DNA of 64,000 nt from Ulva prolifera (taxonomy: Eukaryota; Chlorophyta; Ulvophyceae; Ulvales; Ulvaceae): positions 8,092,842 through 8,156,841 of the forward strand of contig CM041197.1 of assembly GCA_023078555.1 (NCBI GenBank), in the 5' to 3' direction. Of this stretch, positions 13,244 through 43,800 are shown piece by piece. Numbering within the stretch: position 1 is the stretch's first letter; each line of letters starts with the position of its first letter. A program made the position numbers and the translations under genes. The notes under the pieces are model-generated. The model saw only the letters and a program-made list of their open reading frames with translations, did not search any database and was not told where the DNA came from.

Positions 13244-14519
13244 ATAACACTCCTGAATTCAGCATCACACTTGACTGTTTGTTGCTTTTACCATCTAAGT
13301 TCAGTTGACTTGCATGTGCATTCAAGGTCATATGACGTATACCTATGATATATGATACCATACGCGATCTTCGACTTGAAGGCGAGATCCCCTTCGCGTG
13401 TGGCTGCCTCAGCTGAGCTCAGGTGTCCTGCAGGCAGTACATCTGAAGTTGGACTCTGATCTTGCGACAGTTGAGGTTCAGCAAGGCTGCCTGTGCACGT
13501 GCTGTGCCCACGTGTCCTCGAACGTATCCACGTATGCATGGGGTACGCTGTTGCGCTTGGCTACGCATGTTGGGCGCCACAAACCGATTCGATCGACTGA
13601 CACCCTCGTTATCATTGAGGCGTCAGCGTGCGGCCGTCTTCAAACGAAGCCCATCACCTGGGGTGTGGCATCGCGTGCGCGAGGAGGCAGCGACAGACAT
13701 ATGCCAATCACCCCCACCTGCACGTCATGAACGCTCCCTGTCCTTCCTGTGATTCATTTGATTCGTTTCATTGGACGGGCTCAGTGCAGATCGACCCGTG
13801 CTCCACGAAATACTGCCCGAAAGATCTTTGTTCTGTCACTTCCGCGTTGCGGAGAGCAGGTACAGGAAAACACTATGCAAGTTGCACAGAAAACATTGTG
13901 CGGGACAAAGGTCCTGGCATCTGGAGCATCTGGGTGCCGTCACTCTCCAGCGATCTCAAGAGTTTTTGTTGCGGCCACACAGGATCAGGAGTATTCTGGG
14001 ACAGGAAAGAGGTGTGACAGCTGCCGTCACTGTTTTGAAATTCGTTGTGGAACATGGCCTGTCATCGCCGTGCCAAGCTTCCGTGGGCAGGGCTAGAGTG
14101 ATGTCCAACAGATGCTGCTCAAGTGGGGACACTCGGACCACGACTTGACCAACACTGTTTGAAAGTTACAATTCAGTGCCATTGGTTTGTCTCCATGAAT
14201 GTTGCGCTGAATCATCAACGGTGGATGCCCGTGCATCATGTTGCTTCCTCCGAGCTGCATCGATCACTTGGCGCGACGTAGCCCTAGGCGTCCTTGCAGT
14301 ATCCATAACAAATTCATGTAGGGCACACTGTTATTAGCTGATTTGGCTCGCTGTCTCGCAATCAATCGCGTGCTTGTGGATGAAGTTGTGGCTGCCATCG
14401 ATAGGAAACAGTCATGTTGCATTGCCAAGCGATCCCTCGACACCAGCTCACACAGCATCGTCAATCCCTTGAGATGATGAATACTTAAATTTGATACATG
14501 AGCGTGCGTTTTTGTGCAG

Positions 14520-17218: not shown

Positions 17219-19737
17219 GCATGCAGCAGCCACACGTGATACTTTTGCTGGCCGCAAGGGGGCATCCTGCGTCCTCGTGTGTTCTTCGAATAAAGTTACA
17301 CATACCGGGCCATTGTATGGCAAAGCAAACAAACACATCAGGCCAACCAACTGATCAGCTGCCACACAAGCAACCAGCAAAGCTCACCTGTGTTCTTCGG
17401 GGACCACCTGACCGGAGGAGATGAAGACCACCTGACCGGATGACCGCCTTATCGGGTGCTGCATGCGTCAACGCCTGACAAGGACCACCTGATCAGAGGA
17501 GCTGTGCGAGTCGTGAGGTTTGATGTTGTTGTTGCACACAGCAGAGGCAGGCGCACTCGGATGCCTGTGAACCGTGATGAGAATGACGGTGATGAGGTTG
17601 GGAATATATTCAAGCACTGGTGGCTCACAGCGAGAGAATGTGAGGGCTTCGATGCGGGGGTGGCCAGGCCATTGCTTGTCGTGTGTACAGAGTGGTCAGG
17701 CCGACGCCTGCACGCCAGAGATGTGAGCAAAGATGAGACGTTGCCGTACATGCTGTCAAAGCTGTTCCGTCCATCGAGCATGTCTGTAATTGGAGATTGC
17801 AGGAGAGGGTCTGGACCTGGATGCCGGCATTGCTGGGTGTGATGTCTGACTAGGTGATTTGAAAGTGTCCGATTGACAGCCTGGTCTGATTGTTGTGCTC
17901 TGAGCCGCTGCAGTGGCTGGCCTGCCCATGGCATACCACAATGAGGCTTCAATGCACAAGGTTGTGCCGGTGCCAGCGCTGCGTGCTTGTGCCTGTTCTC
18001 ATTGTGCGATGTATGCATAACTGAACTCGGACGCCGCACAGCATGATTGGTTGTTCTCGTCGAGCTACACAATAAGATTCAGCCATGACATACATTGGTT
18101 CTGGCACGTGCAGTCAAGACGGGCGTGGCACACAGGTTCGACACCGCCGTGGCTCATATAGCCCAGCATTTAGATGTTGATAATAACTGATGGCCTGCAG
18201 ACTCCTTGAAACTAGCTCCCAGACACATCTGGCTGCGGTGTGTTGCAGGGACAAAGTCGGTGGAGCAGGGAACACCATCTAGATCGAATGTGGCGTGACA
18301 GCCTAGGCTTTGTGAACTGTAGCCCAGGCGTTGTGCTATGCAACCTCACACACCAGGCTAACGCAATGCAGACCACCATCGCTCATGGCCTACAACACCA
18401 GGTGCTGCGGGCGACACCAACATTCAGCATGCCTGTGCGAATATTTGGGGGCTGAGTGACACTGTGCAGCTTAAAGACTGCTTCTGCTAGTAAAACCACC
18501 ATGCAGCATGACTGTTCTGACCGTCGATGTCCTAGGATAGCTGAAGAAGCGGGTCGCGAGAGCAGCGACGACAATCACCACTGCTTGCGCATTAATGGGA
18601 AGCTATGATTCTTTGCATGGACGGAACACCATGATGCGGGGCTTGGCACCATCCTTGCTGCCTCGCTAGCGTCCAGCAAGCTAATGACCAGCCCACAGGC
18701 GCGAGCAACGCCGTCACGAACACCAAAGCCATACATGTACAATGTGTGGATTCTGGTGTCACTGGTGCATAACTTCCAGGGGACTTCAAGGGCACACACA
18801 CACACTGCCATTGTTCCCGTACGGGGTGTTGTCTAATGCTGATGCTGTGTCAAAGAGGCCACACGCAGGCATCTGCCTGTGACCACCTATCTCGAGATAC
18901 GAGTTTGTGTAGGAGTTCCTGTAGAGACCCCTTTGGAGATGCACAGGACGGATTTGCCCTGCGTGCGTCCAGGAGCGCACGTAGATCATCACCTCTACAA
19001 TCAAAAAAGTTCTATGTAACCGAACATATGTAGATGTTTCTGCCGATCGAGCAGCTGTATCTCCGTCAGTTAACGGCAATTCAACATGAATGTGTGCCAA
19101 AGTGCAGACGGCAGCGTCGTGTGAACATGGTGCTGCCGTCTGCTCTTTGGCTGGGCGGATGTGACATGATCACTCGAGACTCGCGCATGTTGCTGTATCA
19201 GCACGTATACACTGTCCAAGTCCTGGACATCAGATCGAGACATGGCAAGCCCGCTGCTAGCATATAGCGACGTCAATGCATGCCAACAGGTTCGCAAGGC
19301 GCGCGCGGGAAAGCAAAACACTCTCAAATTGGCATAAGGTGGGGACACCGACCTACTGACACACCCTGAATAGCATGATGGCAACGTTTGCAAGTCGAGA
19401 TTCGTTTTCCCTTTGGCTACGTAGCTCCCTCAAATTCACACTCGCTGAGCCAGCAACATGGCTGACGCTCCTGGTCCTACGATCTCCCTACGCCCTGGGG
19501 GGGGCAGGCGCAACAACCCATTCACAGCCTTTTCGCAAGGAGCTGGTGTGAAAGCTGCCGTGCCGCAGAAGGTGATTTCTTTTGCTCCTGCTCTGTGGTG
19601 ATCAGCGCGGTCTTGCGTGTGGAAGTGATGAATGGTCGCGATTCAAGGCAAATGCCGTTTTTGTTTGGGATCCCTGCTTGTCCGCGAGCCTCGTGGGACT
19701 CAGTGTTGCGCATTTAACGAGCCGTCGGGATGCGCAG
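17219..19737. other. Intergenic region
   Basis: This begins after the NTF2-like stop codon and holds the 100-base element at 17289. Reading frames at 17449-18072 and elsewhere show no family resemblance. The true first exon of eIF4G may lie here but I could not identify it. Confidence 0.45.
17278..17399. mobile_element. 100-base mini-element with 11-base target-site duplication
   Basis: The element (17289-17388) is flanked by the direct repeat TGTGTTCTTCG at 17278-17288 and 17389-17399. It matches 55124-55222, sharing CACATA.CGG.CCAT, TATGGCAAAGCA and GCCACACAAGCA in the same order. Confidence 0.8.
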
Positions 19738-22700
19738 GCCCTCGCTGCATCTGGTACACCACACTCGACCACGGTGGACGAACGGAAGAAAGAGCTGGGT
19801 GTAGATATCTTGAAGTACTCGAAGGACTTCATGTATCAATTTGCAGAGGTGCGACTTTTGGCAGAGGAAGTTCAGCGTTCAGCTCCGGCGTGGTCTTGAC
19901 TGCGTGGTACAAAAAATGCCTTGCCCTGGAACGAAAGTACGCTATTGCTATTGTGTCAATGTGTCAGGCCATCTTAAGGCCGGTCGTACTTAAATACCTG
20001 TGAAGCGCTCTCGGCTAACGCTGTGTCAATGGCTGCCGATGGACCAGGGCTTGTACATCGTGATGGCACCGTCACCTTGATCTGTGGCTTGCACACCTAC
20101 CAAATCGATTTGATTCGAGGTTCTCCTGGGCCCATCAGCTATTCAGCTCTTGCATTTGCCCCTGTCGTGGTCATCCTGGCTCGATGGACACATATTTGTA
20201 ACAGAGCATATGATTGCAGAGGAACACTCGTGCTCCATCAGGCCTTGAAGTTGTGAAAGGACTGGTCATCGATGACGTAACGAGTAAAACGGTATGCTGC
20301 CACCCTTCAAACAGCCGCACATTCAGAGATGCCTGTCAACGATCGCCACCAATTATTAGTGTGCTCGTGCCGGCTGTGCTGGCCATCATGGCGCATTCAG
20401 CACGACACTGGAGTCCTCCTGCGTGGTGTCGAGTGGTGGCTCCTTGTGATCTGCCAGTCGCATGCTGTGAGCTGAGTAGTGTGCAGCTGGTGCAAGATTC
20501 CTCAGCAGATCAGCACGAAGCAGGTTAAATAGCTGAGCCACTTACGCACTGAAGGATGCAGTCCCACCGCCGGGCTGCATCCTTCTTATCGCACAACTGT
20601 AGCCAGGATAATCCAGCCAGACCAGGGCATTTTCCACACCAGTCCACCACCAACCTTCACACCAGTCTTTGACACCATCCCCAGGACGCGTCCCCAGACA
20701 CCCCCGGACAGAGGCACCGCCGTGTGCAGATCGGCACCGGCGCCCCCAAAGCACCCGAGAAGGAGAACAACAGCTGGCGCTCCACCGCGGCGCCGGGTGC
20801 CGCGGGCGGCGGCGGCGCAGCGGCGCACGCCGGCGGCGCCGCCGCCCGCGCGGCCGCCGCCGCCGCCGCGGCCAACCCGCGCGGCCCCCCACCCCCTGAG
20901 GCCTCCATCATCCAGAAGGCCGAAGATATCGGCCGGCAGAAGTGGGCCCCCGTGAAGGGCCTCACGAGCAATGCTCAGGCGCAGCAGAAGCTGCGCGGGC
21001 TGCTCAACAAGCTCACCCCGGACAACTTTGACCGCCTCACGCCGCAGGTTCTGTCGATCATGGCGGTGTCGCGCGAGGTGCTGCGCGCGTGCATCCCGCT
21101 GCTGTTTGAGAAGGCCGTCGTCGAGCCGACGTTCTGCGCGCTGTACGCCGACCTCTCCTCCGTGCTCTCCACCTCCCTCGCAGACTACGACTTCGGCTCC
21201 GAGAACGGGAAGCCCGTCGCCTTCCGCCGCGAGCTCCTCAACACCTGCCAGGTGCCGTCCCCCCGCCTCCCCCGGCAGCCGCTTGCACCCTGTGATTCCT
21301 GTTTGCTTCTCTGTATGTATGGCAGTGTCAACAACACATGTGGTGCCGGCACCGAGGTAATGGGCAGGCATTCCGGCATGTTGGCATGCATGCATATTGG
21401 GGGATCCGAACATGCCGGGGTTCATGCCGGCATGTCGGGGATGATGAGCAGCAGGCATCCCGGCATGTCGGCATGCCTCGTTGTCCCCGGCCATGTCCAA
21501 TGTGTCACTGGTAAGGCTGGTCCTGAGGGGTACATTGGGTTCCATATACCGGTATGTATTCTTGTGCCCTGGGAATAAAGTATAGGATACAGGTACAATG
21601 AACATTTTCGATTATAGAGACGCAACAAAAACTCGGATCACAAACAGAATTCGGTGGTTGGAAGACCCTTGTTCTTGTTGTTCCTAGAGCTGTCAATAAT
21701 TGCCATTTTTTACAAATGGGCGCTGTTTAGACATCAATTGTTGTTTTGGTTCAGAGTGGAAAACCATTCAGTGCCTTCATCACTTTCCAGAATCGATTCG
21801 AATTCGCTCACAAGTTTCAGAGCAACATGAAAACATCTTTGCAATCTACATGTACATTAGTTACGCCTGTAAAAGTCACTGATTTGACGGCGATGTGTGT
21901 GATGGCCAAGAGACATTATTCGCAGCACCTATTCACGGCCCGTTCACAACCCTTTCGCAGGCCGCACACAGCCTGTTCCCTTGTTTTTGTTCTACAGTGT
22001 TAAGCGTTGTTGCAGATATGCATGCTTACTTCCTGGGCATGTCAATTGAAGAAAGCCGTAGTCATGTTCTGGCTCGCTCGAGGGACAAGGCATTCCTTGC
22101 AGCAGTACGTAAACGTATCGGGATAATTGCAGTACATATATGCATACTGAGAATATGGCAAGATATCTTCATCCGACCTGTGCGTGTCGGACCCTCAGCT
22201 CGCTCTGGACAGCGCACCATACGATCGATGTTACTGGCGGTAACATCGTTCTGTGCATGGACACACCACCCAGAGACACATACAGGACAGGACATCATCC
22301 ATTACAATTGATGCACGAGGGCTCAGCTGACTAGCACGGATGTTAATCAAGCCTGATGTCATAGTAACGAATCGAGTCGCCTCAAGTACAGATCTACAGT
22401 TTTTTTAAGCACTCCATAGTCCCACTAAACCCCCGCTGCTGCGGGGAATACTATTCTGCAAAGGTATATCGCAGCCCGAATATACCCCTCTACAGGGTAT
22501 ACCGACATATCGAGGTTATACCCCTTATTCTGTTGATTTTGAACTGATACCGGTGTGGATACCCTAGACCCATATACCGATAAAAACCTTTATACCGGTG
22601 TACGCCAGGCCTAGTCACTGGCAACTCGATGTCTGTGTGCATGCTGCTCAATGCTCTGGTCTCCCGGTGTGTTCCATCAGCCCCATCCATGGAACTTCGG

Positions 22701-25700
22701 GAGCTCCGGAGTCTCATTCCACGTTCGTCAAGCTGCATGTTTTTGCACCTGTGTGGTGGTACGAAGTCTCCCTGTTGTCGTTCTGTGCGGTGCCACTGCG
22801 AATGTGTGGATCCGCAGAGGCAGCGCACTCCATGATGTGCGCCCGGGGGCTTGACACGTGACAGGGGAGCCGTGTGGGACTGCAGGATGAGTTTGAGGGG
22901 ATGCAGCAGCAGCGCGAGAAGCTGGCCGAGGCGGCGGGACAGGCCGCCGCGGAGCAGGAGTACGAGCGGCGCAAGCTCAAGATGCGGCAGCTCGGCACGC
23001 TGCGCCTCATCGCGGAGCTCTTCAACCGCGACCTCCTGACGCACAGCGTCATGCGCATCGTGATGATGGACATGCTCGATCGCTGCCGCTCCTCCGCGGG
23101 CGCGTACGACGTGCCACTCATCGAGTGCCTCGTGCAGGTGGGCCCTCCGCCACACCCCCCCTCTTGTTGGTGCTGAGATTGCATACGCCCGGAGCGTATG
23201 AACACACCTACAGCGTTGATGGGGCGGTCTGCGTCGAAATCGTGAGCGAATCGTGAATCGAATCAGGGACAGTGTGTAGATCCGTGGATCGCTGCTTTTG
23301 GTTGCACTGCCTGCTGGGATGATGATCGGGTGCTCCGCTGTGCCCTGACCCGAGTCCTTGTGGTTTGTACCGTTCGTGCTGCCGCAGCCCAGCCTCTGTC
23401 AGTTGCGCGGGGCTCGCATCGGTTCCGGTGTGTGGTGATGATTTCCTTGGCATTGAGCTGGATTTGTATCACGCCGTGACATGCCAGACGCGGGAATGTG
23501 GCGTGGCGTGGCGGGTGACCACCTGAAGCGGCGGCGGCGGCCTCTGGGCAGGCCCGCGGGACCCTGTGCGGCAACTGAGCCCTGCGACTCACAAACATGC
23601 ACACTTCCTCCCACTCTTTCCCCTCCTCTCTGTTTCGACGCACTCTGCCGGCGGCTCGGTGTCGGGAGGCGTGCATGTGGGTGCGTGTGCAGCGTTTTCA
23701 GGGATGCCACCCCAAAAATAGACCTGGATATTCGGAATTGTTCCATGTGATCGGGCCCGATGACCCAACAGTGGTGAATGTGGGTGCGTGTGCAGGCGCT
23801 GACGATCGCGGGCGAGAAGATGTCCAAGACGGAGAAGATCGCCAAGAGCCTGGACCAGGTGGTGAAGAAGCTCGGCGTGTGGTCCAATGACCCCAACCTT
23901 GAGGCCCGCATCCGGTTCAAAATCAAAGACCTCCAGGCACGCCCCGACCCTCCCCCGTTGCGTCTCCTGTCCCCCTGCGGACAAATGACTTGCCGCGCAC
24001 GCACACTGGACCACGAGGCCCCCTGGGCTCGCGACGCTTGATCCGTGGTGCTTCCGGTCGCTCCCACATCCAGTGGATTATCCGATCGCGCAGGGACGTG
24101 TGTTCCCCGCAGGCCGCATGCGCCGCACGCGCCGCAGCTTGTGGGGATAGCTGCAATACTGCGGGTCTCGGCTGTCTGTCTTGGGGTCCGCTAATCCCTC
24201 CGCTCCGTGCCGTTCTGAAGCGGCGTTCTGAAGTGGCGCTCTGAAGCGGCGTGCTGAAGTGCCGTGCTGAATCGCCGTGCTGAAGTGGCGGCGCCGCTCG
24301 CGTGCCGCCATGCAGACGAGAGGTGGGCCGCGCTGATCGCGTGCGGCTGAGCGGGTTGTGCGCGCGTGCAGGACCAGATCGCGGCCGGGTGGCGCGCGCG
24401 GCACGAGAACACCGTCAAGAAGACGGAGGAGATCCGCCGCGAGGCGCACCAGGAGCTCGGCATCGTGCAGCCGCAGTTCCCGGCGTTCCTGCCCAACCTC
24501 AACCTCGGCGCCGCTGCCGCGAAACCTGACCCCCGGGTGCGCTCTTCTCTGCTTTAAACCCCCCTGTCGGGGTATCGTCGACCAGTTGTTCTGCCTCCCC
24601 TCCCCCCTTTTCCACTGGGCGAGCGGTGTTTGATTCGGTCATGCGTGGTTTCGCCTGTGTGTGATTGCGTGCAATTGAGTCTGTATGTGATCAGGCTGAG
24701 AGCATGCTATTGACATGATGTGCGGCAAGATTTGGAGACAGACCACAAGCGTGGCCGATGTGGTCTGGATTAGTAGCGTGCTGCGCCGTGCTGGGGCCGG
24801 CGCTGGAGCAGTTGGTGACGCTGATCTGTACGCACTCCTCGTCGCCGGCCGCGCTGCTGGCCGCGTGATCCCCCAGACCCTGCGGGGCTGCTCGTTAGCG
24901 AGGACAGGGCGGTCAAGCCGCGCTCCAAAAACCCCCGCAGTGCGTATGCAGCCTTGTGCCGCGTCAGCGTAGCGACGTGTCTTCCCGGGCGCGCGTCTGA
25001 TGGCGCGTATTGCATGACGTGTATTGCACGGCGGGTGTCTGATGGTGCGCGTCTCGCGGCGGTGCAGGTGCAACAGAGCCTCCCCACGGAGGAGCTGTAT
25101 GGCATGCCGATCCCGGAGAGCATGAAGGACGACGCACTGCGGCCCGACGACGCCGACGCCGCGAAGGACTCGAGTGCCCCCCGCGGCACCATGGCCGACG
25201 ACGCCGTCCGCAAGAAGGCCCACGGCACCTTCCAGGAGGTGCGCGCCCCCGGCCACGGCCATGGCCAATGCGCGCGCACGGCACCCTGTACATGGGCCGC
25301 TGGGCGGCCTCCAGGGTGGCTTCCCGGGCGGCCCAGGCCCAGCTTCATTCATGGGGGACCCCCAGGCGTTGTGCATGGCTCCATGTGCCCTGCCTGGTGC
25401 CCGGTGTCGTGTTTGCACAATGCATGCTGTGCTCACGCTGATGCTACGTGCTTTGCGTGTGCATGCTGGTGCATACCCGACGCGCGCAGGCGGTGCGCGA
25501 GCATCATCCGTTTTGCTCGGCGGGCCACGAGCCGTGAGCTGTTGCGTGCCGGCCGTGAATTGTGACGGTGGCGGTGCAGTTCCTGTCGATCCGCGACTTC
25601 GAGGAGGCGGAGCAGTGCATGCGGGAGATGCTGCTGGACACGCGCCAGGAGGCGCTCGTCGTCGAGACGGCGCTGAACGACAGCTACGACCTGCAGAAGG

Positions 25701-26796
25701 AAACGGAGCGCGCGTCGGTGCGCGACGTGATCACGCGCCTCGCCGAGGCCGGCTGCCTCTCCAGCGACGCCATCGTCCAAGGCATCAAGGTGCGCCCCCC
25801 CCCCCCCCCCCCCCCGAGCGCCACCCGCCTCGCTCTGTCTGGGCCGGGGGCGCCCTGGGGGGCCCTGGGGGGTCCCTGGGCCGCCTTGGCATGTTCTGCA
25901 CAGGGTGCCGGGCCGTTGCATGGCCAAGCACCACGAAGCATACGACAACGCGCGCTTAATTTAATCCTCTCTGTGCACAAGAGCGTGCACAAGAGAGAAT
26001 CTCCCTGAACGACAAGGCGCTGCTACCAAAAGCAATCATCCGACGCCTGCTTGGAACCTTGGAGGGGGGTGATGTGCCCTTGGCCGCTGGTGGCGTGGTG
26101 GCTGATTGCGCGCTGCGCCTGCTGCAGAGCAGCCCGCAGCATTGCCAGCTGTGCGATCACCGCCGTTGGGAACTGCTCTGGCCGGATCCGGAGGGCTCAT
26201 GGCGTTCCAGCACGCCGCGCTCCTGACCTCACAGCGGCACCGTGATTGCTATGCTGTGTGCGTGCCGTGGACCAGATCAATAAAACAATTCAAAATCAAT
26301 GATAATGGTCATAATGCTCCACTTCCTACGTACGTAGTGTGCCAGAGGTGCAGCTGCAGGAAGTCGATGTCGTGAGAATGCTGTCGCCGGAGGAGCGCAA
26401 ACACCCATGATTGACAAACTCCAAGGTACTTTGACGCTGCATGGCGCTGTGCAGGCTCACACAGACGCGCTCGAGGACATCGCAGTCGACATCCCGCTCG
26501 CGCCGCAGATCCTCGGCAAGTTCCTCGCGTCGCTCCTCGAGAGCCAGCGCCTCGCGCCGGGTGTGTTCGAGGACATCTTTGCGGCGCCGGGCGCAGCCGA
26601 CGCGAAGCGCTCGATCTTCAAGCACGCGATGAAGGACCTCGCCGCGAGCCTCGGCCAGGGCCCGACGGAGGAGCTCATGGCGCCGACGAAGGGCATCATG
26701 GGGCCGCTGCTGAACGCGGACCCGGAGCTCGACCCCGGCGTGCCCAACGTGTTTGACTACGTCAAGATGGAGGGCCTGCAGTGGGCGATCGCGTAG
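19738..26796 (+). CDS. Translation initiation factor eIF4G / eIFiso4G
   Basis: eIF4G is the scaffold linking cap-binding eIF4E, helicase eIF4A and eIF3. Exons: 19738-19848, 20220-20276, 20730-21251, 22886-23137, 23796-23936, 24372-24536, 25068-25238, 25580-25789, 26455-26796. Every intron is phase 0. Exon 1 has an eIF4E-binding motif of Y-x4-L-hydrophobic type, here YSKDFMY with Met for Leu. An Ala/Gly/Pro-rich spacer leads into the MIF4G domain (exons 3-5), with GLLNKLTPDNFDRL, EKAVVEPTFCALYADLS and RRELLNTCQ-DEFEGM. Exons 8-9 form an MA3 domain (FLSIRDFEEAEQCM; stop TAG at 26794). The 656 residues seen are short for eIF4G but fit the eIFiso4G type. Intron 5 has a GC donor and intron 8 begins GTGCG plus 21 Cs. 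The start codon was not found, and exon 2 is inferred from phase and position. Confidence 0.92.
21360..21490. repeat. CCGGCATGT/GGCATGC repeat cluster in an eIF4G intron
   Basis: CCGGCATG or close variants recur about four times within 130 bases, interleaved with GGCATGC and self-complementary, so this stretch can fold on itself. It is a degenerate minisatellite in the intron between exons 3 and 4. Confidence 0.6.
23675..23795 (+). mobile_element. 85-base element with 18-base direct repeats at a 3' splice site
   Basis: ATGTGGGTGCGTGTGCAG occurs at 23675-23692 and again at 23778-23795. The second copy is the acceptor used before eIF4G exon 5. The 85 bases between (23693-23777) start CGTTTTCAGGGATG, contain GGAATTGTTCCATGTGATCG and end GACCCAACAGTGGTGA. 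They match 42926-43003 and, inverted, about 29400-29466. Confidence 0.8.
25795..25815 (+). repeat. Poly-C run of 21 directly after a 5' splice site
   Basis: The eIF4G intron after exon 8 begins GTGCG and continues with 21 uninterrupted C residues. Confidence 0.9.
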
Positions 26797-28263: not shown

Positions 28264-31200
28264 CTAGCTGTGGCGGAGGGATGACGAGTCGGCGGAGAAG
28301 GCGGCGCGGAGGCGGTCGCAGAAGACGCTGCACGGCGGCCGCGCGGCCGGGTCGCGGTTCAGGGTTTCGAGGATCGGCGAGCGCAGCACGCCGAGCTTGG
28401 CGCGGACCGCGTCTGTCAGGCGCTCGCCCTCCCACGGCAGCGGCGCGTCGCCACGGAGCTGTGTGTAGGCCTGCACAGCACACAGCGCGCATTGTATGGG
28501 GATCCCGGGATCGCGCCACAGCATGCAGCACAGCACACGCACCGGCCACAACATGCCGCGGTCTGCACAGAGAGCACCAGCCGTGGTGTAGGGCCGCCGC
28601 GTCGCTGGCGGCGTGGCATGCGTGCTGGGTGTGCACAGCATGCTGGCATCGCCGCGTGCACTGCTGGGTGAACATTTGTGATTCGTGATTTTGTTTCTTT
28701 CAACATGCATGTGGCTCCGCCCCAAGCACCGTAGTGCTCTTGAAGCATCCTGGTGCTGAGTCTCGTCAAGCGCAGACTCTCGACCCAAGGCCGGACGCCA
28801 GCCGCAGCGCAGCGCAGCACAGCACACCTGCTGCGAGCCGGTCATCCAGTCAAACGCGGGGTGGCCTGTCAGCAGCTCAAAGGCCATCACGGCGAGCGCC
28901 CACGCGTCAGTCGCGGGGTCGGCCGGCGGCGGCGGGACGCCGCGGTCGTGCGCCGCGATGATCTCCGGCGGCGCGTAGCCGGGGGTGTGGCCGTCAGGCG
29001 CGGCGCAGCCGGCGCGCGCCGCGAGCCCAAAGTCGATCAGCGTCCACGCGCCGCGGCTCGGCAGGAAGATGATGTTGCCGGGCTTGAGGTCGCGGTGCAC
29101 CCAGCCGCGGGCGTGCAGGTCTGTGAGGCACTCCGCCACTTGGCCGACGATCTGCAGCGGAGACGCGCTCTCAGAGGGTGCGCTCGCAACGGCTGCCTAG
29201 CGGCGCGGGTCACTGCGGGGAACGTCCGGCGGTTGGGCGTGCTGTGAAAGCTCATGTGGCACGCACGTGTACTGTGGAGGTGGCCGTACTGGCCGGGTCC
29301 TGCTCGGGAATTTCCCTGAGAACCACCCTTCTGGCTCTGCCGGCGCTGCAGGAGGCGCTGCAGGAGCCTGCTCGGGAATTTCCCTGAGTGTTGTCGTTGC
29401 CACGCCCGATCACATGGAACAGTTCTGAATACTAAGCTCAAATGTCTGCGTGACAGCCCTGAAACTGGTGCGAGGCGATCCGACACGGCTGAGAACGCAG
29501 CGCACCTGCGCGACCTGCTGCTCAGGCAGGGCGTAAGGATGTGGGACAATGAATGGCGGAGAACCACAGCACGCTACACCGTATTGAGCAGACGTGCTGC
29601 ACTGTGATGGAACAGAGCAGCCGCCGCAGCCAGCCAGCGCATGCACCGACGCATCAATGCTCTACACACCCTATGCCCACCCGCAACCAACCAAAAGCAG
29701 ACACACCAATCTTGCACACACGGTGCCCGCAACACTAGTCGAAGGGCGCGTGTTCGGGGGTCGTGCCGCTGGCCGCGAGGCCGCACCTGGATGATCGTGA
29801 AGAAGTCGTGCGCGCAGCGCGCAGTGCGCTCCTGCAGCGCCTCCCCCCGCTCCATCACGAAGCACGGCGGCATCGGGTTTCCGAAGGGGTCCCGGAACGC
29901 GCCGTCCTCGTTGTCCACAAACTCCACCACCGGCGGCATGAAGTCCCGGAGGTCATCGGTGGCAAAGAGGCTGCGCTCCGCGTTGTACGCGGCGCGGCCG
30001 GCAAACAGCTTCATCGCGTACTGCGCGTTGGTCTGCGGGGCGCGCACAAACTGCACGACGGCCTGGCCTGCATGCGTGCTGCGCGTGAGAAACACCCGTA
30101 CGCGTGGGCGAGTGGGACGCCGCCCGCGGCGCGGTGAGGCAATGGCCGGGTGACGCGTTGTATGGGCCAGATGGCACATCTGTATGCGCGCATGCGTGGG
30201 CCCATACGGAAGGTCCAGCATGTGTGGATGAATGGGGTGCTGGGTTCCGGAGACAGGGCTGTGGTGCTTGCCGCGTGGTGAGACCCAGCTCCGGGCGCGG
30301 ATACCCCGGCCTCACGAACGATGATGTGCCGAGCTGCAGTGTGGACTGGCACCAGACGCAGTCCGATCAGACGCGTGATCTGATCCCGACTCCGACAGGG
30401 GTGGTCATCTAGGGGATGCTGGAGAGCTTGCAGACATTCCGGGGATCACACGACATGCTTCACGCACCTCCGCGGCGGCGCGCGTCCAGCAGTTCAAAGC
30501 GCTTCAGCACCATCCCGTGCGGCCCGAAGGCCGCGAGCTGGTCCTGGATGTGGTCCAGCCGCTGCCGCACCGGCGCGTTGCTGCCGGGGTCCTGCGGCGG
30601 CCCCGGCGCCGGCAGCGGCAGCGTCGCAAACGCACCGCTGTCCGCGAACGTGTCCATCTGCGTCGCCTGGTTGAACAGGCAGCCGTGCCGCGCCTCGGCC
30701 GCCGCGAGGCCCCCCGGCGGCCCCGAGCCCTCTGTGCTCCCGCCGACACCGTCAGGGTCCGCAAACCGCGCACTGTCCACCGCAGACAGCACGTGCAGCG
30801 AGTCCATCCCCCCGCCCCCCTCCTCCGCATCCTCCCCCCGGCCCCGGTGCCGCGCCTTCACGCTCGCGCCGGGCGACCCCTGCAATGCGGTCCAGCCGGC
30901 ACTCCCCCCCCGTCCCCCCAACGAGTCCCCCCCCGTGCGCGGCTCCGTGCTCAGCTCCCGCGGCAGCGACTGCATGCGCGAGAACATGGAGGCGGCCTGG
31001 AAGAAGAATGGCTGCGCCGAGTCCTCGTCCTGAAAGACGAAGGTCACACTCTCGAGGTCGTGGTGGGCCTCCGCAGCGTACATAGCACACTCGTCGAGCG
31101 CGATGGCGGCGACGTCCCACAGCGGGTAGCCGCGGCGGCCGCTGCCGAGCGCCGGGAAGGCGACGTTTCGGATGCCGTTGCCGGGCTTGCCCGCGAGCGC

Positions 31201-34200
31201 GAGCGCGTTCCTGCACCGCAGCACGACAGTCAGCGCGTTACACCACGTTGTCACATGCGTCCGCTGTGCCCGGGATCAGGCGGGGGTTAGGGGTGGTGCG
31301 CGGCCGCACGCAGCACCGCAACATCGATGCTGCTATGCGTTGTGTGGGCGGGCGTACGCGTGTGCAGCACAAGAACTGCAGCTATTGTTGGGGCATTGAG
31401 CACCAGTAGCCCACATGCAATGGACAGGGCCGGACCTGTAGGCGGAGGCGAGGACCGGCGCCGACGTCGCCTCGCGCTCATACTGCGGCGCCACCGCGTG
31501 GATGACGTGGGCCGCCGGCAGCCCAAAGCCGGGCGTCATGCGCGCCTGCCCTGCACACCCAGAGCACACGCATGAGAACCATGCGGCAGCGTCCCACCGC
31601 TCGCAATCCTCACAACCGCACATGCGTTGGCACAAGTGTGCATATGCATGCACGCACCACCACGCAATCAGCAGGCGGAGCTGCGGCCTCAGCACCAGAT
31701 ATCCGGTGCTCACAGTGGACGGCGCATGCGCACGGCATGCACAGCACGCAGCACAGAGCAGCACACCTGCAGGGCAGCGGACGCCGGCGCGCAGCGGCAG
31801 TTGCTCGCAGGCCTCGCGCAAGTGGCCACCGGCGGTTCGCTCCAGCGCGCAGCACAGGCCGCCAACCATGCTGAGGGCCTCGTTCGCGCAGTTCACCACG
31901 GCGTCCCCCTGCACGCGGGGCACGGCGCCATCACCACAGCACGCACAGCACGCCGCACAGGGCAGCGCGCCCGGCGGCGCGTCACGCCTGGGAGGTGCGC
32001 ATTTGGTACAGCGTGTGTCACTTACCACAAAAAAAAGTTGAAAAAAAAAAAAACAAAAAAACAGCAGAGCTGCTGGTAGGGGGCAACCCTGCACCCTGGG
32101 AGATCTTCACGGCGGCTCCCCTGTCCGTGCGGTGGCGGACCGTTTCTGCAGCTTGCCAGTAGTGATGCAGCGCTGAGGTCTGCCGGGATGGATTTTGCAA
32201 CCACCACATAGATCCAGACCCGCTGCTGCTGGTTGCGCCTGTCAGGTCGAGATCAGTTTCTGCTGAGCCCGATGCATGCATGGCAGATGAGGAGCGGCGG
32301 GCCGCACCGAGAAGCAGGTGATGTCGCCGATGCCGAGGTACAGCACGCAGCCCCCTCCGAGGTGGAAGCACGCATGCTGGTCAATGCACGCCCGCCCGCT
32401 CCGCCACGACACCAGCTGCAGCAGGCTGCGCTGCCCGGCAGCCGCCGCCAGCGCCGCGCTCGGCGCCGGCCGCGGCAGCGACCACGCCGGCGCCGAGCCC
32501 GGCGGCGCCCAGCCCGGCGGCAGCGCCACCGGCGCTGCCGGCGCCGGCGGGGTCGCCGGTGCCGGCGGAGCCGGCGGCGGGAATGGTGACAGCGTGGTGC
32601 GCGCGCAGCGCAGGAACGGCTGCGCGTCGGCCGCGTCGAGGAACACAAAGGTGATCTCTGAGAGCGTCCCGGCCCCACCCGCGCAGGCCCGCAGCGCGAC
32701 GGCGGCGGCGGCGGCGGGGGGGTACCCGTGTGCCCCGCAGCTGATCGCTGGGAATGCGACCGTGCGGATGCGCTTCTGAGAGTTCGCGATCGCGAGGGCG
32801 CTCCTGCACGCTGGGCCCCCATCAGCGCACATGGCGGCGCCGGCGTGCGCTCGCGCACGGCTGTGGTGTAGTCGCAGTGGTAGCACGCCCGCGCGCCGCT
32901 GCAGCTGCTGTGCCGAGTTCCCATTGAAAGGCCTTCTTGGCACGGCGTCGTTGCGGCTTGATCGGGGCGGAGCTGTGGATCCGTGGCAGCTGTTCTAGAA
33001 ATATCAGGCAAGGCTGCCACCGGCACACCACTGGGCAGATGGGGCGCTGAGATACAGCAGAGAAATAAGCAATGAAGCTCGGGTCAGAGCTCTGGTCAAT
33101 GGGATCGAGAGCAACAAGGCGCAAACATTGATATGATCGGTAAATCAGGGAGGTAAAGTAAAAGTAAACTTGAATTGTCTGAACGGGAGCCTGAAAGGAC
33201 ATTGACAAGATGTGTGCTGCTGGCATGGCAGGGAGCAGACCTGTAGGCAGAGGCCAGGAGGGGGGCAGACTCAGCATCAGAGCTGTAGACGGGGCCTACT
33301 GCATGGATGACATGCTTGGCAAGGAGCTTGAAGCCTGGGGTCCTGCGTGCCTCACCTGCAGGTACAGCAGACCGTGTGCAAGCGGCGAGGGGCGAGAGTC
33401 GATGCGCCTCACAAAACGGCCAAAGTGCATGATTGGGGCGGAGGCTGGCCTGGTGAGCCAGTAGGGGCTGAGAGGGAAGGGCGCTGTATCACTCATGCGG
33501 GCCATGGCTGTGATATATTCCATGCCACCGAACAAAATAAGCTGTGACCTTGGTCCCTGTGCTACACTGAGGCACAGAAGCCGGAAGACGACAAGGATCA
33601 AATGGGAGAGGCAAATTACACCGCAGGACCCACACAGGAAGCTATCAGTGTCGATGGTGCGTGTGCAAGGTCGCGACTGAAGCAAAGCTTGGTTGCTGCA
33701 TGTTTGTCGGGTATGATGCCACTTGTGTAATGAGTCGCCCGTTCCAGTCGCTACGTGTAGCTTGCTACAGTACGCATTTCCTGCACAAGGTGTTTCGAGG
33801 AAGTGTGCACTGCAGCAGGTTGTGCACTGGCGTGTAGTGCGGAGCGAGCGATGTGGGTTCGAGACACGCCGGGCAACGAGCTCACTGTCAGCCTGAAAGC
33901 AGGCCACGTCGGCGATATCACTCCCATATCACACAGACACATCATCTTGTACAAATCACAGGATAACACGTGCAGTCACCGCACCCACACGGTGATGTGC
34001 AGAACATCCGTGCAGTCACCGCAAGCGCAACTAGCCAGTTCACCATGCAGGTGCATACGCACGACCACCCGGCACGATGCTCAAATTGCTTAAAGAGTGG
34101 AACAGAGCTTGTAAAGGCGTGCGTCGGTAGCTCACCGGTAGGACACCGCACGCCGCTCTTCGCTGGCAACGCCGCGCAAGCGCCTCGCAGGTCTGGCCCC

Positions 34201-34566
34201 GCGGCCTGGTGGACAGCAGCGTCGACACCGGCAAAGCCACCGAGCATGAACTCATTTGCTGCGTTGACAATGGCATCACCCTGCAACGCGCAACCCACGT
34301 TTTGTGGTTTCGTGCAGACCTGGGCTTCGGTTGGCTCGAACGAGAGCTCGCATTGCGCAGTTCGGGCCTGTGCCGGTGTGCCGCAGCTCTGCTTTCGTCC
34401 GCGATGCAGGCCCATCATGTCTCAAGTGTCGCTACTGAATCATCTGTGCGGAGGTAAGGCACACCTCGAACCAGGTCAAGCTTCCCACGCCGAAGTGCAG
34501 CAGGCACCCCGTGGTAAGCTGGAACGATGCCAAATGCTTGATCACATTTGGACGCGCGTTGTCCAT
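28264..34566 (-). CDS. Two macro domains fused to a Ser/Thr protein kinase
   Basis: Ten exons join with consistent phases: 34465-34566, 34136-34280, 33241-33355, 32308-32803, 31767-31908, 31436-31550, 30468-31210, 29787-30067, 28828-29151, 28264-28470 (stop TAG). They give 889 residues. Macro A (about 1-190) has GDAIVNAAN, a modified loop GGFAGVDAAVHQAAG, CPTGEARRTPGF, HVIHAVGP and CGAHGYP. Macro B (about 270-440) has GDAVVNCAN but a degenerate SMVGGLCCALERTAG, then HVIHAVAP and GSGRRGYP. After a Gly/Pro-rich linker the kinase (about 600-885) keeps its ATP-site Lys639 (YAMKLF), HRDLKPGN (Asp734, Asn739), DFG (Asp753) and APPE. The glycine loop is loose (GGGQAVVQF). Macro domains bind ADP-ribose; the kinase substrate is unknown. 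No signal peptide or membrane segment is seen. The ATG at 34566 could be intronic, because GTTCCAG just after it could be an acceptor. Confidence 0.88.
29299..29388. repeat. 22-base direct repeat pair in a macro-kinase intron
   Basis: A 22-base sequence beginning CCTGCTCGGGAATTTCCC occurs identically at 29299-29320 and 29367-29388, in the intron between exons 8 and 9. Confidence 0.85.
29400..29466 (-). mobile_element. Inverted diverged copy of the 85-base element
   Basis: The reverse complement contains AGTTTCAGGG near its start and TGTTCCATGTGATCGGGC near its end, as at 23693-23777. It lies in the macro-kinase intron between exons 8 and 9. Its boundaries are approximate and no flanking repeats are obvious. 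Confidence 0.6.
33138..33215 (-). mobile_element. Diverged inverted SINE-like copy in a macro-kinase intron
   Basis: The reverse complement has CTTGTCAATGTCC, then a stretch ending AAGTTTACTTTTACTTTACC. This parallels the 3' part of the element at 7303. Confidence 0.4.
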
Positions 34567-36187
34567 CGAGCACGCGTCAATCAGCCCTTAGGAGCTGTAC
34601 TGTTCGCCTCCAGACGTCGGAATGATGATCAGCAGGACCCGGAAATCTCGTACCCAAGCCGGGAGCGTGTGCCAGCGATCCACAGGCGCTCCCGCAGATC
34701 TACCTATGTTCGTTGAGTACTATCGAAAGGCACGACAATTAGCAGTCTGAGTGAAGCAGTTTGTATCTCGGCCAGAGGCGCTTGCTGCTCACGATCTCAA
34801 TTCAGTGCACGCGATATCGGCGTTGCCAGAGTGCCTGACCTAGAAAAGCATTGGGTAACGCCTGCACACGGCAGCATGACGCCTTTGGTTATTGAAGCTG
34901 CGGTGCGAATGAGCCATCACGGCGTGTCACGCAGCCGACGGTGTCGTGCATCTGGCATGGCATTGCATCTGGCCGGTGATGTGTGTCACACAAGACGCAT
35001 GCACGCGTAGGCGCTCCGCCCGAACACTCGCCTGGGCCCAGGTCATTGACACTGTGCACGGGTCACAGGCACAGCTTCTTCTCCGTGGACTGAAGCTACA
35101 CAGTCATGTACGTACGTCTACTGCAGCACCGTCGGCCCGTGTGCTGCATGCGCTGTGTACATTCGCTCGCGCCTATCTCAACACGAGACAAGTCCTCGAA
35201 ACACCCAGAGATAGAGCGCTGATCCAGCCGCATGCCTCGCACGCATGAGCATGCAGAACACTGCCGCGCGTGGTCACGCGTGGCGCAAGTACCTTTCCCA
35301 GCAAACCTGGAACACGCTGGGACCTGACCTCGTCATGATATATCATCGCGTGCTGAACTGCAGGGCCCCGCACTCTGATGATGCGATAGTGCGTAGTCAT
35401 GATTGACCAAACCGTCAACTTGCGGCTCCATGCATATGTACTGCCATGAGCTCACTCTTCTCGCGAGGCCTCGCGAGTTGGAATGATGTGAACGAACACG
35501 TATCCGCCGATCTGCTTTGTTAGAGAAGCTTTCATTTCCGCAGGCCCCTTCATTGATGTATCACAGATGCACTATCCGTCGGTCGCTTCTGACCGATGAC
35601 AGATGCTCTGTCATCAGTGTGTATGTCAGCTGTGAACTCTTGCTTTGCAGTTGCGCAACGCGCGTTGCATTTGTGGCACTTGAGCAACGGCCTTTTCTGC
35701 ACAATCTACGGATCTGACTTTACCAATTTCCGGCAAGGATATGGCGAGGCAATTGCAGCTTTGCATCAAATCACCATGTCCGATGTTGCAGAAGAGCGGA
35801 CGGGTGCGAGTGACCGCGCCACAACCGTCTCGCACAAAGCGCGTCCATGCAATCTTATAGGCACAAAGCGCCGACAAGCTGGTCTCCAGCACCAGGTCCC
35901 GCAGCGCATCATGCGCCTGACGGAACACCACATACGCATCACGATTCCCGCTCCGGTGATGTGTTTGTCTGTGCTGCCTGGGTGTGCGGTTGCCTGGGTG
36001 TGCAGCCGGGAGATGGGGGGCCGCACCCTCAGCCTGAGGTGTGGCCCCTGTGCCTGCAGCTCCGGGACTAGGGGCCCCCAGACGGAGTAGCAGAGAGCCC
36101 GGCACATCTGGTGTCTCACCGCAGCGCCGCCCCAACGCCGTCCATTTCGCGCGCGCACTCCGCCCTCACGCTACATCCACCAAGCGA
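34567..36187. other. Region between the two macro-domain genes
   Basis: The 1.6 kb between the paralogues should hold the promoter of the macro-kinase gene if the two genes are separate. Open frames at 35626-36158 (minus) show no family resemblance and no macro or kinase motif. Confidence 0.5.
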
Positions 36188-38301
36188 TTACGGCCTCTCG
36201 CGCGGGTCCTGCGAGGGTGCCCCGCCGGCCGGGGTGGCTGAGGGATCCTGGCCATCGGAGGGGGGGCTGCGGGAGGTCCGCACGGCGGGCGCGCCGTCCG
36301 GGGACTCCACAGCGCTGGCGCTGCCGATACGCCTTGTGGCGGGTTCGCTGCGGGAACGCTCCCGAGCTGGCGGGGTGCTGGTAGCACGTGGCGGACCGCC
36401 TGTGGGATCTTCGGCACTGGGACTGCCTGGGACGCCGGCGGCCGGCAGGCCGGCCGAGACCTCCTGCGGGGGAGGGCTCTCCGCGGGCCGCGTAGCAGGT
36501 GGTATGACGGAGGCCCGTTGTTGTTGTTGAGCAAGGGGGCTGTCGGTTGCCCGCGCCGCAGGCTCGCCGGCAGGGGGGGTGTCAGGAGCGCGGCCATCTG
36601 GGAGCGGCTGCCCCAGCTGCGACTCCGCGGCGTGCAGGAACGGCCTCGCGGTGGCGTCGCTGAAGAGGACGAGGGAGATGCCGGCGAGCGCGCCGGCGCC
36701 GCGGCCGCACTCCCGCACGGCCACGGCCGCCGCGCGCTCGACGGGGTAGCCGTACACCCCGCAGCTGATCGCCGGGAACGCGATCTCGCGCACGCCGGGC
36801 TGCCGGTTCGCGACGGCCAGCGCGTTCCTGCGGAGGTGTACCGCGGCGGGTGATGCTGGGTGGTGTGGTGGCCTGTGCAGGGGTTTGCTGGCGTGTCTTA
36901 TTCAGGCGGCGCCATTAGCAACAGACCCAGGAAAGGGGACAAGGTCTGGTTAGTTGGCTCAGAGCTGTGACCGGGATGTCGACAGGCAATGACCCAGAGG
37001 TGCGTCAGCCCCACGTGTAAGCAAACGACACAGGAGCAGACCGCGCCCTGGTGGAGTACATCGACTGTGAAGTGACGCGAAGTAGAGTCGCTAGCGTGAT
37101 CATATACAGGACCTCGTCCAAACGAGACCACATGCTGAAGAATTGAATCCTTGAGAATCCCCACTTGGGACAGCTGCATGGAACTGCCCCCATTCTGGCC
37201 TGCCCCGCCTGCCCCTCGTGTCGCAGTGCGGAGCTGCGGTGGCCATTGCAGACAGCAATGTAGGTGTCGGTCAGGCCAGAATCCTTGCACACGCTGTGCC
37301 CCATTCGTGAAGCAGTTGACCGATCGTGATCTGTATGCTCAACTGGTCGGATGTTTGCTTGAACAAACGTGGCTCCAGCATGCACATCGACGATCGGCCT
37401 CTGTACTGCCATGCAGATGCCATGAACACATGTTGATGAGAGGGGATGGCGGTGGGTCGCAGGTGGCAGTTGCACACCTGTAGGCGCTGGCTAGAAGCGG
37501 CTCAGAAGTTTCATCATCGATGAAAACCGGTCCGACAGTGTGTATCACGTGCTTCACGGGTAATTTGAAGCCTGGAGTGATCTGTGCTTCCCCTGCACAT
37601 CTTTGTCCTCAGACACATGAGCACACATCCAATGGCAAGGACAGTTGTGCTAACGCAGGCTTGTGAACAAGGTCGTCAGAATGCATCAGCTCGGAGGTTT
37701 GCAATGGTGTTGGCTCAAAGCCTTGTGAAGCGTCCGTTGCTGGTACACAGGATCGAGAGATGCCAATGGTATCGCAGCCTGGCAATAACCTGGAGAGAGA
37801 GAAATTCGAACACACACGAGCTCCTCGATCAGCTCTTTCGTCACTGTCATGATGTGCAGTGGTGGCACCTGTGGGGCAACGAATTCCCTTGATGGCAGGA
37901 ATTTCCCGGCATGCTTTGAGAAGGCCTCGTCCAGCTGCTCGGTGTATGGCACCGTCGACCCCTCCACCTCCGAGCATTGCTTGGTTGGCTGCATTGACAA
38001 TAGCATCACCCTGGATGTGACAATTTGAGGTCATTCTAGGTAAGAAGCGACGAAAAAGGCCCCTCAAGCGTTGGGAAGCGTTGCTATCTGACGACCGAAG
38101 CCAGCGCACACTCCAGCGCAACGCTGAAGCCAATGCTGCCCAGGCAGGGTCGAACCACGAAAGTCTTCGCAAATGTGTTGTCAAGGATGTTGCATGCCGC
38201 ACCGGAACCGAGCGTCTACGCACCTTGAACGTGGTCAGGTCGCCTACGCGCACATGCAGCCTGCAGTTCGAGGTCAGCTGAAAAGACGCCAGTCTTCGCA
38301 T
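36188..38301 (-). CDS. MacroD-type macro-domain protein with disordered tail
   Basis: Exons 38224-38301, 37869-38010, 37478-37592 and 36188-36827 join exactly (phases 0, 1, 2) to give 324 residues from ATG 38301 to TAA. The macro domain covers about residues 1-190. It has [20 protein letters not shown] followed by AIHRAAG, then [25 protein letters not shown], and [13 protein letters not shown] as the second binding loop. This is the pattern of MacroD-type mono-ADP-ribosylhydrolases, with the Asn and Asp of the catalytic loop kept, so removal of ADP-ribose from proteins or of O-acetyl groups from ADP-ribose is plausible. The last 135 or so residues are Pro/Ser/Ala-rich and presumably disordered. 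The first exon is homologous to that of the macro-kinase gene downstream on the same strand (both read LASFQLT). TCTTTTCAG within it could be an intron acceptor, so the start may lie further upstream. Confidence 0.87.
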
Positions 38302-40895: not shown

Positions 40896-43800
40896 GTATT
40901 GGCAAGAGAAGGGCTTTGCTGCTATAGTGGCATCCCGCATCCTCAACTTGGGTGCACTTGCATTCACAATTGTCATGGCGACCTTTCTTCTGCTAATATT
41001 TGATCGGCATGGATTGAAGGCACAATGCCTGCTTGATGACACATGTGACATGGCAACAGTCGCAGTGAAGCATCCGTGGTCTAAAGAGACGCCTTTGGCC
41101 CTGTTGTTCAAGCTAATCTTCCTGGGCATGTTCAGTTTTTACTGGGTATACAGCGCTGTCAGCGCTTCCATTGAGGTCTGGTGAGTCCCTATACCATCCT
41201 GTTGCTCCCTTCATGCGCAGTACGCGTCTCCAGCCGGAATAGCATGTTGTATCTGAGAAGAAACACTGTCGGTGATCAGGCCTGCTTTGACTCGACTGTT
41301 TGTGACTTACAGCCTGTCCTTTTCTGACTGGTCCCTTCATCACCACAGGCAACAGGCAGTCGTCTGTACATCATCACACCGCACCAAGCCTTCCCAGTCA
41401 CCTGCTACCAAGTAGTCGGGAAACTTCTTGGTTCAAGCCCTTCTTGAGCACACGGTGTCAGCCGAACCGTGTGCATGAGTTGCTACTCTTGGTGAGTGCC
41501 TGCCAAGGCATTTCAACCACTCACAATCGTTTAATCCACACGCATGTCGTCTCAATCAGCCCACTGCTCCCGTCCTCCTGCAGGCAGTTCTGGGACATCC
41601 AGCACTTCTGCCAGAGCCGCATGGGCCTGTCGGACGCAGCACTGACACACCTGCCATGGCCAGAGCTGCTGAGGCGCCTGGTCGCCATTCAGCGCACAGT
41701 CAAGCTTTCTCTGCGGGGAGAGCTCTCGCAGCACGATATTGTGATGCGGGTCATGCGCAAAGACGACTTCCTTATAGGTGTGTGCTCGTTCACCCATGCG
41801 GGCCTGACTGCAGAGCTCCTTCTGTGTGCCGATCGTTTCCAGCTGAGCAGTCAGGTCAAGTATACTTGCTCTCGATAATCCCATGATGCGATGTGCCTGT
41901 TGCTCCACCACGCATGTTGGTTTGCCTCACGGCGCCGTTCAAGGCGGCGCGCCCATGCTGCAGTGCTGTGTGCTGAGTACGTCAGACAGGGCCTAGCGTT
42001 GCTGAGTCGGCTAGTTCGTGTCTGTGGGCAAGCGGTATGAGCAGAGCAACCGGCACGGTAGCAGTGATCTGCGCTGGCCAGACCCGCCTGCGCCCTGTAG
42101 TCTGCGCACCGCCTGAGCGTGAGCACTGCCCTGAAGCTGAATGACTGCGCTGTATCAGTCGCTTGGGTTTATGTGGCTTGCTGCACAGCTGGGCCGTGAA
42201 GCTGGCATCGGCGAGCCGGTCTTAGCTGCAGACTGCAGCAGCCGCGCTGCAACCGTGCTGAGCCACATGCCACTGAAGCATGCCCCGGCACGTCTCGATG
42301 GCAAAGTGGCAATGGTGCCTTGGAGCGTAGAGAAAGTGGGCGAAATCACCGCAGATGACCTTCTCAGCCAATGCACACGTGGAGCCACACATGCAGCTCA
42401 CCCCCAGCCCACCAGGGCACAAACTCATCATCATACATGCCTGCATGGGTGTGTGAGCCCGCGTTTTGGGCACCCATCGCCCCCAGCGTGGGAAGTTCAC
42501 AGGGTCTTTTGGAGCTCCTGCCCCATCACCGCACCAGCAGGTTGTACAGTTGCCCGCTGTGGCCGTGCTCGGCGTCAGGACAGCCCTGTCATGCAGGCAT
42601 GCTGAACCACGGTACGCTGGACCTGCACATGCCGCTGCCGCTGCTGCGCACGCGGCCGCTGCTCACGGCGACCGTCGCGTGGGTGCTCCGCGTGTGCCTC
42701 CTCGACGCGATGTTTGACGACCAGTTTGAGATCTTGCAGCCGTTCATGCGGGACGGCGCGCACATCGCGCTGCGCTTCCGCGTCGCCGCCGCCGTCTCGG
42801 CCGCGCTCAGCCCCTTCATCCTCGTCTTCCTCGTCATCCACTTCCTGCTCAAGCACCTCGAGCGCATCTACCACCAGCCTGGCAGCCTCGGTGCGCTTCT
42901 TCAGCAGTATTGGGCCGCCTCGCAGCGTTTGTGAAGCTGTCGTCCAGAAAGTAGACCCAGATCTTTGGAATTGTTCTACGTCATTGGGCCTGACGACCCA
43001 ACACTCCCCCTCAGCACCGCCTATCCCGGCGACAATCCCATGTGTGTCAGCCAATCTGCACCATGCATGCGGCAGGACGGCGACTCGGATGCAAGAATGA
43101 AGCACGACACGCCGCAAGTGCCACACAGCGCCAGCGTCACGCCGCTGTTCCCAGAACACGCACTCCCTGTACAGCTGCGTTCGCTCCAGAGATGCCTACA
43201 CCTGCTTGGGCAGCCATGGCCACATGTCTGCTTCCTCCAAGGTCCCTCCAGCGCGCTTTAGCTGCTTGCCACAGAGACTAGTTGCTGATACAGGAAAGCG
43301 GCGGTGGTCGACGTACGCATACTGGCGCATGCGGGAGTACGGCGAGCTTCCACACTTTGTGGAGCAGCGCCTCAACTCGGGCGCGGCGGCCGCGGCGCGG
43401 TACTGCGCCCAGTTTCCATCGCCGCTGACGGGCGCCGTCGCGGCGTTTGTCGCGTACGTCGCCGCCGGCATCGCGGCGCTCGTCATCGGCATCGCCCTGA
43501 CGCACGACTACCTCATGGAGCGGCCCGCCGGCGGGCACACGCTCGTGTGGTGGCTCGCGGCGTGCGGCATGGTGCTCGCGGTGGCGCGAGCGCTCACAGA
43601 GGACGATGCGCCGACGCACGATGCCGTGCGCTGCCGCCTCCCCCCTCGCGTCTGCCTGCAGAGTCCCGAACTTGTGCATGCTTGAGTTTTTGTTTCGTCC
43701 CATGACCACATAGCGTTGGCTCCTGTGGACAGAGGCGGTGTACGCGGCGAAATTGCGGACGCCGGAGACGCGCGCGGTCACCACATTGGTGGGCCGAATG

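Follow-up and report, generated by a model that had tools for sequence, protein, structure and literature searches.

The stretch of DNA analysed here, referred to as the window, is 64,000 nucleotides long and represents positions 8092842-8156841 of contig C2 of Ulva prolifera. On its minus strand, at positions 34566-28264, it contains a predicted gene that encodes two macrodomains followed by a protein kinase domain and is termed MMK (macro-macro-kinase). A gene for a protein with a single macrodomain adjoins it. In this report, the predicted architecture of MMK, the relatives of both its halves in the same genome, and the possible function of its product are analyzed.

Gene model and domain architecture of MMK

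The predicted MMK gene consists of ten exons, which encode a product of 889 amino acid residues without an internal stop. All nine introns are of the GT...GCAG form and their phases are all compatible. The rebuilt model therefore agrees with the initial annotation, in which ten exons with consistent phases and 889 residues had been proposed. When the product is searched against Pfam, Macro (PF01661) is matched over two stretches with 206.2 bits (E 1.3e-61, cut-off 22), the better of which spans profile positions 1-118 of 118, and Pkinase is matched with 68.9 bits (E 5.8e-19, cut-off 31.7). The motifs AMK, HRDLKPGN, DFG and APPE are all present in the product, indicating that the kinase domain is that of a eukaryotic protein kinase. 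The previous assignment of two macro domains, a linker and a Ser/Thr kinase that keeps the ATP-site Lys, HRD..N, DFG and an APE-like motif is thus borne out. A PARP (ADP-ribosyltransferase) domain is not matched in the product at E values up to 1, indicating that the protein is not a macro-PARP.

Exon 1 (34465-34566) contains the start ATG and the N-terminal strand of macro 1 (LASFQLT..GSLTWFE), and the neighbouring single-macro gene has a homologous start. The stop-to-stop open reading frame of this exon (34432-34587) opens 21 bases ahead of the ATG, with an in-frame stop immediately upstream, so that a start at 34566 is plausible. Exon 2 (34136-34280) encodes the NAAN motif and the catalytic loop (GGFAGVD) of macro 1, exon 3 (33241-33355) its middle region (TPGFKLLAKHVIHAVGP), and exon 4 (32308-32803) its C-terminal half, a Pro/Ala linker and the first strands of macro 2. 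The NCAN motif and the loop (MVGGLCCALE) of macro 2 are encoded by exon 5 (31767-31908) and its middle region by exon 6 (31436-31550). Exon 7 (30468-31210) is the fusion exon, which encodes the C-terminal half of macro 2, a linker and kinase strand 1 (FELLDARRRGG). Exon 8 (29787-30067) encodes the N-lobe of the kinase, with the ATP-site Lys in AMK, exon 9 (28828-29151) the HRDLKPGN, DFG and APPE motifs, and exon 10 (28264-28470) the end of the C-lobe and the stop codon. TGTAA is a poly(A) signal of green algae. On the minus strand it is located at 27493, 771 bases past the MMK stop, and also at 33620 and 31242, inside introns 2 and 6. It is absent from the 1.6 kb that separates the stop of the neighbouring gene from the MMK start.

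Both domain junctions are located inside single open exons, the macro 1/macro 2 junction in exon 4 and the junction of macro 2 with kinase strand 1 in exon 7. The GC content over the MMK coding sequence at the third codon position (GC3) is 0.88, as compared with a GC content of 0.56-0.64 in the MMK introns, and the GC contents of exon 7 at codon positions 1, 2 and 3 are 0.74, 0.55 and 0.91 respectively. To assess the linkers, their openness and GC excess were compared with those of first-order Markov shuffles. For the exon 7 linker, which is approximately 150 residues long, the third-position GC excess is reached in none of the 5000 shuffles, and the probability of chance openness is 0.28. For the exon 4 linker, the probability of chance openness is 0.81 and the GC excess is reached by 6% of the shuffles, so that neither measure is telling. 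Openness of a linker is itself weak evidence; the case against a chance open frame is carried by the GC3 of exon 7, by homology and by the introns. Residues 541-620 of the product, in the later part of the exon 7 linker region, show 44.6% identity (E 2.7e-11) to a kinase paralog, L038, from elsewhere in the genome.

Exon 7 ends with ...FELLDARRRGG and exon 8 starts with QAVVQFV, indicating that the intron between them is located in the glycine loop of the kinase. A transcript ending in this intron would thus cut the kinase short instead of separating two genes. The proposal that the exon 7/exon 8 split could mark a gene border does not fit, because exon 8 starts within the kinase.

Macrodomains and the adjacent single-macro gene

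The neighbouring gene (36188-38301, minus strand) consists of four exons (38301-38224, 38010-37869, 37592-37478 and 36827-36188), encodes a protein of 324 residues with one macrodomain, and is a tandem paralog of the fused macrodomains. The places and phases (0, 1, 2) of its introns are common to all three macro copies. These copies show 47-63% identity to one another, with synonymous divergence (dS) of 1.2-1.5 and nonsynonymous to synonymous ratios (dN/dS) of 0.25-0.35 by the NG86 method, values that are rough given the strongly GC-biased codon use. They indicate that the macro duplications are old and that the copies are constrained. Given the shared macro introns, these dN/dS ratios and GC3, the open frame of MMK is more than chance.

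The own-genome searches covered 88.9 Mb on 44 contigs. All seven PF01661 matches are located at the MMK/neighbour locus, as are 11 of the 12 matches obtained with the neighbour protein as a query, the twelfth being insignificant (E 0.55); this search runs exon by exon and a heavily split copy elsewhere could escape it. Because the fused macrodomains are paralogs of the adjacent gene and all significant macro matches are found at this locus, it is suggested that a macro gene was fused with a receptor-type kinase gene. GC3 is low in the early macro exons, being 0.40 and 0.55 in exons 2 and 3 of the neighbouring gene and 0.65 and 0.66 in exons 2 and 3 of MMK, and is 0.81-0.95 in later exons. Bacterial macro proteins match with up to 65% identity (L067), and a bacterial source for the macro gene is possible.

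When the Protein Data Bank (PDB) is searched, the best matches of macro 1 (E 5.5e-28) and of the neighbour protein (E 6.2e-39) are both of the MacroD type. The first 12 entries for macro 1 bear MacroD-type, MACROD1/2 or O-acetyl-ADP-ribose deacetylase names, except for 1spv (putative polyprotein/phosphatase). The top entry for macro 2 is a PARP14 chain with two macrodomains (E 2.2e-29). Kinship of macro 2 to PARP14 was considered and dropped, because this entry sums two domains, the better of which scores 66.8 bits, below the 79.0 bits of the MacroD entry 5lcc.

The active-site residues were read from phmmer alignments, with the chain numbering of OiMacroD interpreted as the numbering of its paper plus 23. 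According to that paper, N27, N30, D40, H44 and Y134 are the catalytic residues, Tyr134 stacks on the distal ribose, the equivalent mutation Y126A abolished the activity of YmdB, the N30A and D40A mutants are still partly active, and D16 makes its contact via the main chain and is part of the DIT block, whose conservation is almost complete (PMC5413906). The neighbour protein keeps all five catalytic residues, and also D16, G37 and V133. In macro 1, N27, N30, D40 and H44 are kept, D16 is replaced by Ser, the catalytic Gly-loop contains one extra residue (GGFAGVD), and V133-Y134 is replaced by Ala-His. The Ser residue may be tolerated, because D16 binds through its main chain. In macro 2, D16, N27 and N30 are kept, D40 and H44 are replaced by Cys and Glu respectively, and V133-Y134 is replaced by Arg-Arg, so that the Asn pair is all that remains of the catalytic set. 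Thus, neither fused macrodomain has the complete MacroD set of Asn, Asp, His and loop-2 Tyr, and the loss of key hydrolase residues is evident from the alignments. In PMC10221186, activity is recognised by the presence of a hydrophobic residue together with an aromatic one in loop 2, and macro-PARPs are described as containing inactive macrodomains next to active ones. Loss of the Asp alone is not decisive, because viral MacroD homologues without it are active, as stated in PMC7050489. Both fused macrodomains are more likely to be readers than erasers, because the loop-2 Tyr is missing from both and other features are lost in each. It is also a real possibility that one or both of them no longer bind ADP-ribose.

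Kin of the kinase domain and other genes of the window

The kinase part of MMK has at least 145 matches in its own genome at E ≤ 0.001, counted per exon, three of which are the exons of MMK itself (136 of 614 candidates were scored). They represent a very large kinase family on contigs C1-C10 and C23, many members of which have membrane-like segments and long outer regions. The kinase matches at 14058-23922 of the small contig C23 mirror those at 625985-635841 of C7, in that the first pair is equal in score and in extracted kinase sequence and the next pair has nearly equal scores and similar spacing. C23 may duplicate this stretch of C7 or represent another haplotype of it.

A tree was constructed from 27 sequences, MMK and 26 loci (36 paralog loci less ten with an identical sequence). 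MMK joins L018, L021 and L026 in this tree with support of 100/99, and L027 and L042 come next (97/94). The branch of MMK (0.28) does not exceed those of its kin in length (0.29, 0.28 and 0.74), and the kinase dN/dS ratios between MMK and two paralogs are 0.24-0.51. To inspect the regions around the kinases, longer stretches with 8 kb each were taken at the places of L018, L021, L026 and L027 (L038-L041) and at L042. All five contain a membrane-like hydrophobic segment upstream of the kinase, followed by basic residues, with 19-residue Kyte-Doolittle hydropathy values of 2.42-3.33 for segments chosen by eye, and a QG(N/R)C segment recurs in the open frames upstream. A membrane-like segment is also present at L045, L046 and L047, and thus at eight of the nine kinase paralog loci examined. 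At the ninth, L044, Gln/Pro-rich open frames are located upstream, and other partner regions may exist within the kinase family. The label Beta_helix is not claimed for the outer regions of the paralogs, because the Pfam matches, obtained at three of the four loci scanned, are below the cut-off.

In MMK, the highest 19-residue hydropathy is 1.46, located within the first strands of macro 2, and no segment qualifies as membrane-like. The N-terminus is macro 1, and the outer N-terminal region of the receptor-type kin is not present. MMK and all five near paralogs (L038-L042) agree in the place and phase of two kinase introns, one in the glycine loop and one after the N-lobe, and the donor of the third kinase intron is present in all four near paralogs checked. 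The tree placement and the difference in hydropathy together indicate that the MMK kinase is nested in the receptor-type clade and is without the outer and membrane parts. The initial annotation, the architecture of which stands, mentioned neither these receptor-type kin nor the intact macro neighbour.

A scan of ten other open frames of the window gives Pfam matches at E 0.01 for seven of them, located in the intervals 7531-7971 (minus strand) and 20673-26793, 42359-43682 and 48949-49440 (plus strand). The cut-off is exceeded by the matches to MIF4G and to ATG9 (two frames), and those to MA3 (two frames), to VPS11 and to tectonic fall short of it. The tectonic match would suit a flagellated cell.

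Possible function of MMK and comparison with known systems

MMK is probably a single gene, the product of which is a soluble kinase with two MacroD-type macrodomains in place of the outer region and membrane segment of its kin; these macrodomains most likely serve as non-hydrolysing readers that recruit the kinase. According to this explanation, a macro gene would have undergone tandem duplication, and a within-exon joining would have linked the final exon of one of the copies with a receptor-type kinase gene at its juxtamembrane-kinase exon, as the anatomy of MMK suggests. The macro pair would bind an ADP-ribosylated partner or a related nucleotide without hydrolyzing it, and this binding would place or free the kinase to phosphorylate proteins nearby. 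The mark or nucleotide may be made by PARP or by sirtuins. One PARP gene is found in the genome, with three PARP matches inside 1.4 kb on C6 and, upstream, WGR and PARP_reg pieces (C6:8214-8220 kb; of two WGR pieces, one falls short of the cut-off), and sirtuins are matched six times, counted by exon. Sources of ADP-ribose marks and of O-acetyl-ADP-ribose are therefore present in this genome. The intact neighbour protein may act as the eraser of this mark. PARG is not matched in the genome, but the control is equally silent, so that its absence does not follow. A search for the large chain of RuBisCO gives no match.

Several points weigh against this explanation. The gene and its product are predicted from the DNA, as are the N-terminus and splice sites of MMK. 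The eukaryotic comparisons are those within this one genome. Residues approximately 452-540 of the linker have no homologue in the Pfam scan or in the comparison with paralogs, and L044 (C8:2848 kb), one of the nine paralog loci, has no membrane segment in the frames inspected. The sequence gives no sign that macro binding alters the kinase activity. In each of the fused macrodomains, some of the residues by which ADP-ribose is normally held are missing, and possibly neither binds it.

The last point leads to the alternative that the fusion is real, but that the macrodomains are degenerate scaffolds, which do not bind ADP-ribose, and that the protein is a soluble offshoot of the receptor-type kinases. 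The replacement of the DIT Asp by Ser, the Gly-loop insertion and the Ala-His pair of macro 1, and the Cys, Glu and Arg-Arg residues of macro 2, would be expected from such decay. However, the dN/dS ratios of 0.25-0.35 among the macro copies, the retention of the Asn pair and of the Pfam match, and the presence of non-hydrolysing macrodomains beside active ones in macro-PARPs (PMC10221186) argue against it, and we consider it rather unlikely, though not negligible. A further alternative, in which the macro part would be active as an ADP-ribosyl or O-acetyl-ADP-ribose hydrolase, with the kinase working alongside it or regulating it, is improbable. Macro 1 does retain the Asn, Asp and His residues of the MacroD active site, and viral homologues can be active without the Asp (PMC7050489), but both copies are without the loop-2 Tyr and have an altered loop 1, and the neighbouring gene already provides the canonical form. 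The reading in which a double-macro gene and a separate kinase gene were merged by the gene model, which would suit two halves that are close together on the same strand and have relatives standing apart in this genome (the neighbouring macro gene and the receptor-type kinases), and for which a kinase-only transcript starting inside exon 7 can be envisaged, is rejected as very improbable, because an uninterrupted open frame with a GC3 of 0.91 runs through exon 7 (31210-30468) and connects macro 2 with kinase strand 1, and the exon 7/8 boundary is inside the kinase, at an intron common to all five near paralogs.

A soluble kinase with non-hydrolysing macro readers is thus the explanation that we favour, and the description of MMK as an ADP-ribose-sensing kinase is a fair hypothesis. 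ADP-ribosylation is usually connected with phosphorylation by way of separate proteins. It is possible, as a more tentative proposal, that a single polypeptide converts an ADP-ribose signal directly into phosphorylation, the outer part of a receptor having been swapped for a tandem macro reader and a membrane kinase having been moved onto an intracellular PARP/sirtuin pathway. A polypeptide that carries both a reader and a kinase would convert directly between the two kinds of signal. MMK would also be a clear example of how a within-exon fusion can redirect a receptor-type kinase to an inner signal, with relatives of both fusion parents persisting in the same genome, that of the macro parent directly adjoining.

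Each domain of MMK is of a known family, and their joining would be the new part. A macrodomain-protein kinase fusion was not found among the papers listed in literature searches of a collection with few subscription papers. In a search of prokaryotes, 585 of the 595 stretches listed encode macro relatives. In none of the best 80 of these at least 585 stretches do a macro match and a kinase match fall within the same open frame on the plus strand, a result that implies nothing for eukaryotes and was obtained with a kinase profile built from the family of this genome, which bacterial kinases could escape. Nor is a simple HRD-K-N pattern found in the same 80 loci, and one scan of viral contigs with the MMK kinase gives no relative.

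MMK shares with the receptor-type kinases at L038-L042 the kinase domain, those kinase introns that were compared and a portion of the juxtamembrane linker, but has neither their long N-terminal region nor their upstream membrane-like segment. Its macrodomains and the neighbour protein belong to the same sequence family as the MacroD-type proteins (OiMacroD, YmdB and human MACROD1/2). However, the MMK copies are without the loop-2 Tyr and other active-site residues and are placed ahead of a kinase. ALC1/CHD1L consists of a macrodomain and an SNF2 ATPase. It would work like MMK if ADP-ribose binding recruits or frees the effector, but it differs in the effector, the domain order, the number of macrodomains (one) and the macro class. 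The macro-PARPs (PARP9 and PARP14) also have tandem macrodomains, some of them non-hydrolysing, chained to a signalling enzyme. In MMK, in contrast, the effector is a protein kinase instead of an ADP-ribosyltransferase, and the macrodomains are kin of a local MacroD-type gene. By analogy, ALC1 and the macro-PARPs would be the nearest working models for the mechanism of MMK.
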